This document shows, one piece after another, positions 6,101 to 61,500 of a stretch of DNA of 64,000 nucleotides; position 1 is the first letter of the stretch, and each line of letters starts with the position of its first letter. The DNA is from Capitulum mitella. Its lineage: Eukaryota > Arthropoda > Thecostraca > Pollicipedomorpha > Pollicipedidae. The position numbers and the translations under genes are program-made. The notes beneath the pieces were generated by a model. That model was given only the letters and a program-made list of their open reading frames with translations. It had not been told where the DNA came from and searched no databases. Location of the stretch: NCBI GenBank assembly GCA_030062745.1, contig CP099852.1, forward strand, positions 22,342,266 to 22,406,265, given 5' to 3'.

Positions 6101-6759
6101 CTTTGAATGGTCGCTGTGTGGGGACTGTTACTGTCAAGGGACAGCCACCGTTACCGCCCTGGAGACGGCTCCGTCCGCGGGAAGGTGTCTCTGTCCCAGT
6201 CCTGACGTTTGCCCAGGCTAACCAGCAGGATCAGCCGGAGGCGGTGACTGTGACGGAGGAGGTGTCTCTGTCCTGGTCCTGACGTCTGTTCCACTCCCAT
6301 CAGGACCAGCTGGAGGCGGTGACGGTGGCGGAGGAGGTGTCTCTGTACTGGTCCTGACGTCTGTTCCACTCCCATCAGGCCCAGCTGGAGGCGGTGACGG
6401 TGACGGAGGAGGTGTCTCTGTCCTGGTCCTGACGTCTGTTCCCCTCCCATCAGGACCAGCCGGAGGCGGTGGCAGTGACGGAGGAGGTGTCTCTGTACTG
6501 GTCCTGACGTCTGTTCCACTCCCAGCAGGACCAGCTGGAGGCGGTGACGGTGACGGAGGAGGTGTCTCGGTACTGGTCCTGACGTCTGTTCCACTCCCGT
6601 CAGGACCAGCTGGAGGCGGTGGCGGTGACGGAGGAGGTGCCGGAGCCGGCCGAACCGGCCGCCGCCGGCCACGCGCTACCGGACCAGGAGTCGGACCCGG
6701 CCGCCGGCGCCGACGAACGACAGGACTGGTGGGGCGGTGACCAGACGGCTGCCTACTGA
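139..6759 (+). CDS. ZF-A: multi-C2H2 zinc-finger protein, 3' ten exons
   Basis: Probable nucleic-acid-binding nuclear protein; its target is unknown. Exons read from GT-AG signals and unbroken phase: 139-339, 652-802, 1183-1271, 1654-1808, 2281-2412, 2878-3011, 3310-3416, 4145-4303, 5570-5696, 6604-6759 (stop TGA), giving 469 residues plus an upstream part outside the window. About ten fingers are visible, including [11 protein letters not shown] and CPVCGQL..H..H in the first exon, one finger split by the 1271/1654 intron (TCLR|CGEHL), [35 protein letters not shown] (second His in the next exon), [18 protein letters not shown], and two successive FYCQECG fingers. The exon at 652 ([18 protein letters not shown]) matches VIEYTDIGTLKEQVKDIK of ZF-E, so the two genes are paralogues. 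The terminal exon is acidic and ends [12 protein letters not shown]. The exon at 2281 is ended at 2412 (CAG|GTGAGC) because this, and not GTGAGC at 2394, gives the phase the next exon needs. Confidence 0.85.
349..510. repeat. (GA)n microsatellite
   Basis: A nearly pure GA dinucleotide run begins about 10 bases after the donor of the first ZF-A exon and ends in GGGAGGGAGG. It stays open in several frames on both strands (Arg-Glu or Ser-Leu), which creates spurious long ORFs. Confidence 0.95.
4145..5696 (+). other. ZF-A tandem pair of finger exons (4145-4303 and 5570-5696)
   Basis: Both exons begin after a CAG with the same bases, encoding FYCQECG, in the same phase (one base completing a split Arg codon). 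The first encodes [22 protein letters not shown] plus an acidic tail, is 159 nt and is phase-symmetric (2-2). The second encodes [22 protein letters not shown], is 127 nt and leaves in phase 0 to join the terminal exon. Including both, or skipping the first, keeps frame. ZF-E has only one such finger. This looks like a local exon duplication after the paralogues split (inference). Confidence 0.75.
4430..4992. repeat. 32-bp minisatellite in the ZF-A intron
   Basis: About 17 head-to-tail copies of a 32-bp unit of the form GGGGTAACACCGGGCCAGGG + TACCACTGACCT, with A/G and T/C variants (GTAACACC or GTAGCACC; TACC or CACC). It lies in the intron between the two FYCQECG exons. No splice-junction sequence is included. 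The minus strand is open in all three frames across the array. Confidence 0.95.
5820..6110. repeat. Short-period GGTCACCGCCTGGGA repeat
   Basis: Imperfect repeats of about 16-17 bp (GGTCACCGCCTGGGA and variants) fill the intron between the second FYCQECG exon and the terminal-exon array. Variants accumulate towards 6100. Confidence 0.85.
6226..6636 (+). repeat. 75-bp acceptor-anchored minisatellite before the ZF-A terminal exon
   Basis: Six copies with exactly 75-bp spacing: exon-like starts lie at 6229, 6304, 6379, 6454, 6529 and 6604. Each unit has a CTGAC branch-like motif, a pyrimidine run ending CAG, then 33 nt encoding [11 protein letters not shown] or close variants, then GTGTCT. Reading straight on from a decoy copy gives a TGA six codons past GTG. 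Only the last copy (6604) continues into the real terminal exon. Confidence 0.9.
6604..6759 (+). CDS. ZF-A terminal coding exon
   Basis: The exon starts [18 protein letters not shown] after CAG and reads 51 codons to TGA at 6757-6759. It is the last member of the 75-bp array. It is acidic and Ala/Pro-rich, like the C-terminus of ZF-E. In-frame with the exon ending at 5696 (phase 0 to 0). Confidence 0.8.
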   Translation, partial: DQLEAVAVTEEVPEPAEPAAAGHALPDQESDPAAGADERQDWWGGDQTAAY

Positions 6760-7197
6760 GCGACCAGGCAGCCGCCTTACTGGACCTCCTGCTGAGTCGC
6801 CTACTTGGCGACCAGTTGGCCTACTGAGAGACCTGACAGCCTGCTGAGCGACCAGTCACCCAGTTATCTTCATATGAAATGCATTATCAGGAGCCTGCTT
6901 GTAGTTGGTAATGTTCCTCTTTTCTGTCATAATTTCTGGACTGTGCCAAATTGTTGTATACAAAACTTCTTAATTTTGCCATATTGCTTTGTTCATACTG
7001 GGTACATTAAAAAAACCATGTTGTGTTTTGGGCTTAATTGCAGGATTGCCCACCTGACATGGTACAAGAAGACTCCTGATGTATGAACTTTTGAACTTCA
7101 GATTGTTTGATATATCTTTCAACTTTCTGTAACATGCAAGGATTCATGACATGTGGAACAGAGACTGCCCATTGGGAGTGCATGCATTTCCTTGTGA

Positions 7198-58500: not shown

Positions 58501-61500
58501 GCGCGCGCCGCAGACGCCTCAACGACGGTCAGACGAGGTCACGCGCGGTCAGACGCGGTCAGACGCGGTCACAGGCGGTCACACGCGGTCAAATATGGCC
58601 AGAAATAGTCAGACATTGTCAAATATACTCAGACGTAGTCAGACATAATCAGACGCGGTCAGACACGGTCAGATATAGTCAGACATAGTCAGACATTGTC
58701 ACATATAGTCAGACGTAGTCAGACATAATCAGACGCGGTCAGACGTGGTCAGATATAGTCAGACATAATCAGACGCCGTCAGATATGGTCAGACATACTC
58801 AGACATAGTCAGACGTGGTCAGACGCCGTCAAAAGCGGTCAGACGAGGTCAGACGAGGTTAAACGCGGTCAGATATGGTCAGACATTCTCAGATGCGGTC
58901 ATATATAGTCACACGTCGTCAGATATAATCAGACGCAGTCAGACGCGGTCAGGTATGGTCACACATGGCTAGACATAGTCAGACGCGGTCAGATATGGTC
59001 AAACATGGTCAGACACGGTAAGACGCGGCCAGCCGAAGTCACAAGCAGTCAGACGAGGTCAGACGCCGTCAGACGCCGTCAGACGGGGCCGTTCGCGGCG
59101 CCAGACCTCACCGGCGGTCGACGCCTCCCTGCGGCCGGGCGGCGGCGCCCCGGGCCGGCCGCCCCGGCCCGGCCGGACCGGCGCCACGCCGTTGACGGCC
59201 GGCCGGGCGGCGGCCGCCGACTGCGGCGGCTCGGCCGGCGGCGGCGGGGGCGGAGGAGCGGCGAACGGCACCAGCGGGCGCACGAACTTGATGCCGGCCG
59301 GGCCGCGGTGCGGCTCCAGCAGGTCCTGGGCCAGCGCCAGGCCCACCCGCTTCCTGGCGACGGGGACCGCGAGCGTCAGACGGCCGCCGTCTCAGCAGAA
59401 CCGGCGCGGGGCGTTCGTATTGATCACCGGCTTCAGTGTTCGCGCGGACAGAGTCAGCTCTCTACCGCACACTGCCCGTGTAAGGCAAACGCAAGTATCG
59501 CCCGTCAGCGCTGGAAATCCTTCAAAAATGGCCAGCGCGCTCACCCTGCTGGCGCACGGGGTGTCACAAATGAGAATTAATTAAAACGGTGTCGATGACC
59601 ACATCAATCACCATCAAATCTACCAACAAGAAATGTTCCCACATCCCTGTGGCGGCCCTACCCAGCTGCTGGTCTACTCACCGGGTGGTTTTGGCCAGCT
59701 CCCGGTCTCCTCACCGGGTGGTTTTGGCCAGCTCCCGGTCTACTCACCGGGTGGTTTTGGCCAGCTCCCGGTCTCCTCACCGGGTGGTTTTGGCCAGCTC
59801 CCGGTCTACTCACCGGGTGGTTTTGGCCAGCTCCCGGTCTACTCACCGGGTGGTTTTGGCCAGCTCCCGGTCTACTCACCGGGTGGTTTTGGCCAGCTCC
59901 CGGTCTACTCACCGGGTGGTTTTGGCCAGCTCCCGGTCTACTCACCGGGTGGTTTTGGCCAGCTCCCGGTCTACTCACCGGGTGGTTTTGGCCAGCTCCC
60001 GGTCTACTCACCGGGTGGTTTTGGCCAGCTCCCGGTCTACTCACCGGGTGGTTTTGGCCAGCTCCCGGTCTACTCACCGGGTGGTTTTGGCCGGGTGGTT
60101 TTGGCCCGGGTTCTGGCCAGCTCCCGGTCTACTCACCGGGTGGTTTTGGCCAGCTCCCGGTCTACTCACCGGGTGGTTTTGGCCAGCTCCCGGTCTACTC
60201 ACCGGGTGGTTTTGGCCGGCTCCCGGTCTACTCACCGGGTGGTTTTGGCCAGCTCCCGGTCTACTCACCGGGTGGTTTTGGCCAGCTCCCGGTCTACTCA
60301 CCGGGTGGTTTTGGCCAGCTCCCGGTCTACTCACCGGGTGGTTTTGGCCAGCTCCCGGTCTACTCACCGGGTGGTTTTGGCCAGCTCCCGGTCTACTCAC
60401 CGGGTGGTTTTGGCCAGCTCCCGGTCTACTCACCGGGTGGTTTTGGCCAGCTCCCGGTTTTTGGCCAGCTCCCGGTCTACTCACCGGGTGGTTTTGGCCA
60501 GCTCCCGGTCTACTCACCGGGTGGTTTTGGCCAGCTCCCGGTCTACTCACCGGGTGGTTTTGGCCAGCTCCCGGTCTACTCACCGGGTGGTTTTGGCCAG
60601 CTCCCGGTCTACTCACCGGGTGGTTTTGGCCAGCTCTCGCAGGCTGCCGTCCTTCTCCTTCTTCTTGGGCACCACGTTGACCCTGACGGTGCCCCAGACC
60701 GTGTCGAGGTCGAGCGTGCGGCTCTGCTGCGCGCCCTCGAAGGTCTGCACCACCGGCGGCAGCACCATGATCACCGGCTTACCTGGGGCGTAACGCCATC
60801 TCACGTCACGTCACGTCACGAGGCGGCAGGGTAACGTCACATGGCTACAATTCACAAGATAGCAGGTTAACGTCACGTCGACTCACGCAAGTTGGTAGGC
60901 ACGGGGGAGCATGGGAGCCATGCCCCCCCCCCCCGAGCCAAGCGGTCTACACTAGATATTAAGCACTGTCTCAGGAATAGGGAACAGTGGTCAAAGATAT
61001 GCCAAAAAAGCAAAAAATTATATGTTTTACTGTGAGTCAAGTATGAGGTCAGTTTCATATTTTTCCTACAAATGTTGGCACATGCCAATAACATGACAGA
61101 ATCTGACCTTTCCCCCTCCCCAGAAAACCCTAGGCTACGCCCAAGCGACTCACACAGTAGCGTAGCGTAATCTGACGTCACGTCACGTCAAAAGGCAGCG
61201 GGTAACGTAACGTCATAAGGCAGTGGCATCAAGTCAATGGCTAGGAACAACACTGGCGACTTGCGCCACATGCCGGCCTGATGTAGCAGTCACAACACCA
61301 GTCCTGTCACCAACACCACACAAATCACGAGAGCCAGTCGGTGGGCCAGCGAGCAGTCACAAAACCTACAGCCATTGTCAGGACACTGGCCAGTCACTGC
61401 AAGCTCAACAGTTAACAGCGCGCACCGTTCTCCTTTTGGTACTCCTCTTCCTCCTCTGAACTGGGCCCGTCCTCCTCCTCCTCCTCTTCCTCCTCTTCTG

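Follow-up and report, generated by a model that had tools for sequence, protein, structure and literature searches.

How do the splice sites of apparently intact genes come to lie inside tandem repeats? This question is raised by a 64,000-nucleotide stretch of the Capitulum mitella genome (assembly GCA_030062745.1, contig CP099852.1, positions 22,342,266 to 22,406,265 of the forward strand; hereafter the window), in which several genes carry minisatellites whose repeat unit is a copy of an exon end together with its own splice site. A first-pass annotation, made from the letters of the window, had described this pattern at six junctions and in paralogous copies, and phased alignments of the repeat units agree with that description. 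The anatomy of the arrays, the presence of separate arrays at different junctions, the turnover of copy number and the recurrence of the pattern in other genes are established. The arrays are probably ordinary minisatellites, in which the founding tandem duplication chanced to span an exon-intron junction and whose presence splicing tolerates.

Genes were modelled manually, with open frames and GT/AG borders as guides. G1 and G4 are related C2H2 zinc-finger genes (Pfam zf-C2H2), G5 duplicates most of G4 in tandem but is truncated at its 5' end, G6 encodes a membrane-like protein without a Pfam match, and G8 is a large minus-strand gene, also without a Pfam match (506 residues scanned). The 12-exon zinc-finger gene has an unbroken translation to its stop, the ten exons of the paralog G5 are all open, and each of the 30 introns outside G5 has GT and AG ends. 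Because the gene models are open, positions 6604, 21589, 22947, 33970, 28781 and 40105 are taken as first bases of exons, and 45804 and 60617 as last bases. Arrays were located with Tandem Repeats Finder (TRF) and with phased unit alignments. The features at the junctions are as follows.

6183 to 6639, plus strand: minisatellite with a 75-bp unit in about 6 copies, spanning the acceptor of exon 6604-6756 (TRF, alignment)
6604 to 6756, plus strand: last exon of the C2H2 gene G1, its first ~35 nt being the edge unit (open frame, Pfam zf-C2H2)
21288 to 21594, plus strand: minisatellite with a 43-bp unit in 7.2 copies, spanning the acceptor of exon 21589-21804 (TRF, alignment)
21794 to 21938, plus strand: minisatellite with a 31-bp unit in 4.4 copies, spanning the donor that follows 21804; paralog copy at 32048-32192
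22240 to 22985, plus strand: minisatellite with a 70-bp unit in 10.6 copies, spanning the acceptor of exon 22947-23070; each copy includes 39 nt of exon
32494 to 34008, plus strand: counterpart of the 70-bp array in the paralog, with about 22 copies and its acceptor at 33970
28338 to 28786, plus strand: minisatellite with a 32-bp unit in 13.8 copies, spanning the acceptor of exon 28781-28993
39986 to 40110, plus strand: 32-bp array in the paralog, 3.8 copies, acceptor 40105
45801 to 46277, plus strand: minisatellite with a 37-bp unit in about 13 copies, spanning the donor that follows 45804; each copy includes about 28 nt of exon
59662 to 60636, minus strand: 33-bp minisatellite, about 30 units (TRF 24.4 + 5.4), donor 60616; 20 nt of exon per copy
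56766 to 56851, minus strand: duplication in two copies at the donor of exon 56836-57030; 18/24 match to the 24-base probe

Tandem-repeat units enclose all six junctions and the two paralog copies, and the copy next to the exon is the outermost one of its array. The units run head to tail, with periods of 31-75 bp, and their number at a junction ranges from about 4 to about 30; the unit crosses the exon-intron boundary, and the intron can hold almost thirty surplus copies of the splice signal. At 6604, each of the five upstream copies consists of CAG, 33 nt of exon-like sequence and GTGTCT. The acceptor units of the window carry a 3' splice site preceded by CTGAC, which resembles a branch point. 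The identification of the edge unit with the real exon follows partly from the way in which exons are called. Judged by eye, the exon-derived part of the unit measures about 31-36 nt at 6604, 6 nt exactly and 11/15 loosely at 21589, 39 nt at 22947, 5/6 nt at 28781, about 28 nt at 45804 and 20 nt at 60617. The junction at 28781 is the weakest, with six exon nucleotides only. Using a 24-base junction probe (G5 left out), 6/7 array-borne junctions reach at least 18/24, whereas 28781 fails at 14; for each of these six junctions and for the two-copy donor, 0/29 and 0/29 control probes did as well. The arrays named in the first-pass annotation are real, but its list overlooked the 31-bp donor array after 21804, which is common to the paralog at 32058, and the two-copy duplication at 56836, the copy of which starts 46 nt into the intron. 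Donors and acceptors are affected in four genes, as had been stated, and unrelated proteins are among the products, but two of the four are the related C2H2 genes, the arrays of which sit at different junctions. Degenerate units reaching the donors after 4303 and at 58064 gave alignments that are suggestive only and were not counted.

In the mechanism proposed here, a short direct repeat on each side of the junction (AGGTG at 6604, AGGTGGAG at 21589, and presumably similar words elsewhere) would allow slippage, end joining or unequal exchange to double a 30-75 bp segment containing the exon end and splice site. Later slippage or exchange would alter the copy number. With the exon-proximal site still in use, the extra copies would fall within the intron and the event would be tolerated. 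We infer the molecular step of duplication, and likewise that the spare copies are close to neutral. The edges of two arrays agree with such a duplication step: AGGTGGAG occurs at both edges of the 21589 array (21288-21295 and 21587-21594), and AGGTG is present at both edges of the 6604 array. Such repeats mark 2/7 arrays and were not recognised by eye in the other five.

The tandem paralogs reveal how far such arrays can diverge, with copy numbers up to three- to four-fold apart. The duplication of G4 comprises 21633-31885 and 31887-43128 (~10.25 kb) and leaves out the 5' exons of G4; its second copy begins inside exon 3, and the later exons are all open. Whereas the exons of G4 and G5 are 96.8-100% identical, their copy numbers are 10.6 and 21.9 for one array, 13.8 and 3.8 for another, and 8.2 and 25.2 for a mid-intron array; the array at 21794 has 4.4 copies in both. 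The unstable copy number characteristic of minisatellites is therefore seen between the paralogs. In addition, the HIK|RVHMKE intron occurs array-free in the related gene G1, which indicates that the array at this one junction grew at an existing intron. The earlier proposal of growth at pre-existing introns is borne out here, and the intron itself is not new at this, the single testable junction.

Collapsed or expanded repeats in the assembly, or wrong exon calls, might imitate such a pattern. The analysis draws on the assembled genome alone, and a coding 30-bp repeat in G8 (55765-55907) has an apparent one-base shift between frames, which may reflect a sequence error or a genuine change. An artefact is nevertheless very improbable: the copies bear distinct substitutions, frames are open across 12 exons, and conserved kinase peptides run on from array-borne junctions elsewhere in the genome.

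Which of the copies is used can be approached through splice-site scores. In the window, 83 in-array sites score within 3 units of the real site, and those as high as the real one make up 6/18 at 22947, 8/13 at 28781, 7/13 at 45804 and 25/27 at 60617, compared with 0/5 at 6604, 1/4 at 21589 and 0/3 at 21804. Use of 77 of the 83 would bring a stop and of 4 a frame shift alone, with 2 leaving the frame open; therefore, the exon-proximal site should normally win, and this edge site is predicted to be the main splice site.

Three sets of observations weigh against an origin by chance followed by simple tolerance. The first is the low loss of AG, which occurs in 1/46 acceptor copies with 9.1 losses expected; correspondingly, 0/182 acceptor core cells are changed, with about 5 expected in sum. 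This result is not predicted by pure neutrality and gives a hint, and a lead, for selection that maintains the copies as reserve or decoy sites for splicing, which they would regulate or buffer, or as small in-frame exons. Across eight arrays, the core AG/GT columns have 3 changes, compared with 12.4 expected, and five 33-nt units at 6604 are open and in phase. However, the copies share ancestry and are hence non-independent, changes in the edge unit inflate the expectation of 9.1, and by column the signal is weak (0/15 acceptor core columns vary, with about 3 expected, counted by hand). Exchange with the functional edge copy could also preserve AG without selection on the spares. The 33-nt units, tried as small in-frame exons and rejected, differ mainly by amino-acid changes; copy numbers drift between the paralogs, and use of most copies would break the frame. 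Selection on the copies is thus considered unlikely, and of decoy selection as a cause, which had been raised earlier, nothing stands beyond this hint.

The second set concerns the position of the arrays. Intronic arrays with a period of at least 12 and a score of at least 90 were counted in the window without G5, an overlap being at least 4 bases of a junction, and the 45,8xx array was taken to begin at 45801, following an overlapping TRF row. Sixteen arrays occur in the 30 introns; 7 overlap a junction and 11 lie within 30 bases of one. Under random placement, 1.58-1.78 overlaps (p=0.0004-0.0007) and 3.43-3.60 arrays within 30 nt (p=0.00005-0.00006) are expected. Outside the arrays, the intron flanks have a GC content of 0.63-0.70 and the centres one of 0.46-0.50; when placement is matched for GC, the expectations become 2.87-3.54 overlaps (p=0.008-0.019) and 5.74-6.22 arrays within 30 nt (p=0.0024-0.0031). 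The excess of arrays at junctions exists, but it is modest. Because GC matching leaves an excess, there may be a junction bias beyond neutrality. Four arrays of the window lie near a junction and not across it.

23628 to 24091, plus strand: 33-bp array ending 23 nt before acceptor 24115
52687 to 54468, minus strand: 31-bp array of 57.7 copies that stops 14 nt short of the acceptor of exon 52568-52672
57370 to 58052, minus strand: 34-bp array ending 12 nt from donor 58064
58528 to 59084, minus strand: array of ~10/30-bp units ending 27 nt from donor 59111

A comparison of recopied words places this excess in context. In the window, 7/60 junction words are recopied, compared with 327/1200 (27%) intron-interior and 2/260 exon-interior words; in a sample from elsewhere in the genome, the counts are 3/100, 189/3960 (4.8%) and 0/1000. 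For repeat growth, junctions behave more like intron than exon. Since junction words are repeated less than intron-interior words, no targeting is required, and a junction rate between those of intron and exon is as expected if duplications across junctions are usually harmless.

The sample from elsewhere consists of exons found through Pfam kinase and WD40 matches and chosen without regard to repeats (58 fetched, 8 with a negative coding score dropped, 50 kept). Judged by eye, 5/50 acceptors are array-borne, whereas 0/50 donors in this sample lie in repeat units. In L041 and L043 the acceptor lies in ~60-bp units and in L042 in a 59-bp unit; L035 has a 44-bp unit in 2.2 copies, with AG lost in the upstream copy, and L074 (WD40) a 57-bp unit in two copies with two exon bases only. 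From their peptides, we take L041 and L043 to be GSK3-like, L042 MRCK-like and L035 CaMK-like kinases. The 24-base probe is positive at 3/100 junctions of the sample (L041, L042 and L043); cross-locus controls reach at least 18 in 8/4876 comparisons, which probably include the two GSK3-like paralogs matched against each other, and the maximum is 22 for real and control probes alike. In both L041 and L043 (gene strand, about 660-905), degenerate upstream copies of one exon start are present, with AG intact in the 3 and 2 copies found, respectively, which suggests an old array at one junction, either shared or regrown. In the comparison with random placement, 7/16 arrays overlap in the window (p=0.0004-0.0007, as above), but in the second sample, in which TRF misses the L043 copy and splits L042, 3/13 arrays overlap, which is not significant alone (p=0.16), and 5/13 lie within 30 bases of a junction (p=0.045). 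An apparent bias toward acceptors over donors (9/80 and 3/80) was set aside (p=0.13). Rhodopsin-like receptor exons (145 matches) were located and left out of the tests.

This recurrence bears on the idea that the arrays are a local quirk of a GC-rich, gene-dense and minisatellite-rich region near a contig end. The window is ~390 kb from the right end of its contig (C14; the genome has 477 Mb in 16 contigs). Minisatellites cover 21% of it (mean of six 10-kb slices) and 4.5% of 20 fixed-position stretches elsewhere, and its GC content is 0.54-0.60, compared with 0.44-0.60 in those stretches, in which ab initio prediction yielded only 16 strong exons in a total of 200 kb, too few for a junction test. 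Yet acceptors of two genes on C7, as well as acceptors on C9 and C5, have the same anatomy, C7 also having a weaker case, and arrays of the donor word considered next occur, among the matches listed, on C1-C8. A local quirk, quite improbable as an explanation, is largely refuted for the existence of the arrays, whereas their density is clearly higher in the window.

The third set comes from a genome-wide count of splice-like words, independent of gene models and exon positions, in which pairs were sought with 15-45 bases between the two copies. CAGGTRAGT occurs about as often singly as its mirror image (6124 and 6165), but its tandem pairs give 188 matches, compared with 13 for the mirror. Among the 100 of these 188 matches listed, which span 55% of the genome, counting by eye gave at least 33 arrays (among them two on C6 that resemble copies of one another), compared with 11 arrays over the same part of the genome for CAGGARAGT (p=0.0002), in which GT is broken and which is about as common (6631 singles). 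Among the matches listed, CAGGTRAGT arrays occur on each of C1-C8. This pairing suggests seeding at protosplice-like words: CAGGT-like sequences would supply the direct repeats, and junctions would be preferred birthplaces of arrays, as the AGGTG and AGGTGGAG repeats at both edges of two arrays would also fit. On the other side, the arrays were counted without exon positions, and single large arrays swing the match counts, as CAGGARAGT itself illustrates (57 pair matches and 117 for its mirror). The remaining words, with arrays for AAGGTRAGT, CGGGTRAGT and CAGGARAGT counted from full match lists, have no clear excess. AAGGTRAGT has 27 matches and 11 for the mirror, or 16 arrays and at most 11 (p=0.22). 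For CGGGTRAGT, there are 22 pairs and 24 in the mirror from 3268 and 6954 singles, about twofold per single, but by array 12 per 3268 singles, compared with 22 per 6631 for CAGGARAGT, is no excess. The acceptor word YTYYYYNCAGG (as reverse complement; 374 and 291 in the mirror) was discarded, as pyrimidine runs self-repeat and its singles were uncounted. CAGG also resembles the cores of recombination-prone minisatellites, which counts against a role for splicing words as such. The tandem excess holds for one word and is unproven as a general rule, and seeding at splice words is possible but the less expected course of events.

The first-pass annotation had proposed a genome-wide process. Its wider reach is supported by the 5/50 acceptors elsewhere and by the CAGGTRAGT excess, but a process aimed at junctions is not: intron-interior words are repeated more, GC matching shrinks the excess in the window, the second sample alone gives p=0.16, and three of the four genome-wide word tests are without clear excess. 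Chance duplication across junctions, tolerated by splicing, accordingly remains the preferred explanation.

How do these arrays compare with known systems? De Grassi and Ciccarelli 2009 (PMC2812944) describe human segmental-duplication genes with minisatellites, some of them at exon-intron boundaries, with units averaging 30 bp in an average of 4 copies, variable between recent paralogs and altering the intron/exon structure, with 27 intron modifications. The arrays described here share the boundary position and the copy-number differences between paralogs, and the statement that no described class of this kind exists was therefore too strong. Unlike the recent human paralogs, which have RNA support, they also occur in conserved kinase genes and are known from DNA alone; up to about 30 units are present, with the splice site itself in each. 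A review (PMC3443670) and a Drosophila study (PMC2891723) treat intron gain by tandem duplication of exon sequence that contains AGGT, and intron sliding. There, as may also be so here at two of the seven arrays, duplication around AGGT-like words yields extra splice sites, but their model makes a new intron, whereas here an existing one was lengthened, at one junction. In C. elegans, the minisatellite CeRep25B is over-represented near alternative splicing regions, according to PMC4039745; it is likewise an intronic minisatellite tied to splicing but is described there as one dispersed family with regulatory motifs, whereas the present arrays derive from the junction of each gene itself. Boundary minisatellites and duplication-driven intron change are hence already known, and what is new is their density and copy depth. 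A literature search found no arrays of splice junctions in an arthropod, most subscription journals lying outside that search.

Recursive (ratchet) splice sites have CAG|GTRAGT at a zero-length exon deep in long introns. Some units of the 21589 array resemble them in having CAG followed directly by GT. As an explanation they were rejected: the acceptor units of the window read CAG|GTGGAG, or exon bases after CAG, and adjoin an exon. Introners, or introns borne by transposons, were also rejected, as unit sequence and unit length vary among the seven junctions; dispersed copies were searched only for the 45,8xx array. Human introns reportedly arose from tandem arrays, going by the title of a study by Zhuo et al. 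in 2007.

Other features of the window include an MCLC-like gene on the minus strand (G3) and an Mff gene. A 29-bp array at 13018-13326 seems to lie right after the coding end of the MCLC-like gene, and its units may stem from the last codons, which would be the same type of growth at a terminal exon. At 16339-16419 there is an interstitial TTAGG-like repeat, similar to the telomere repeats of arthropods. A tRNA scan with the bacterial code found none.

Arrays of this kind offer natural experiments in splice-site choice, in which some 30 near-identical donors (at 60616) or some 20 acceptors (at 33970) follow one another. Because the sites are near-identical, position and not site strength must decide between them. 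The copy-number variants of the paralogs, in turn, catch the tandem-duplication step that is usually inferred afterwards for intron change. About a tenth of the sampled acceptors are array-borne (9/80), and it is conceivable, although rather unlikely, that junctions are preferred birthplaces of minisatellites through CAGGT-like words, with the copies kept splice-competent as a standing reservoir of spare sites from which introns could lengthen or slide and small exons could arise. Were CAGGT words truly preferred, the birth of minisatellites would be tied to gene structure.

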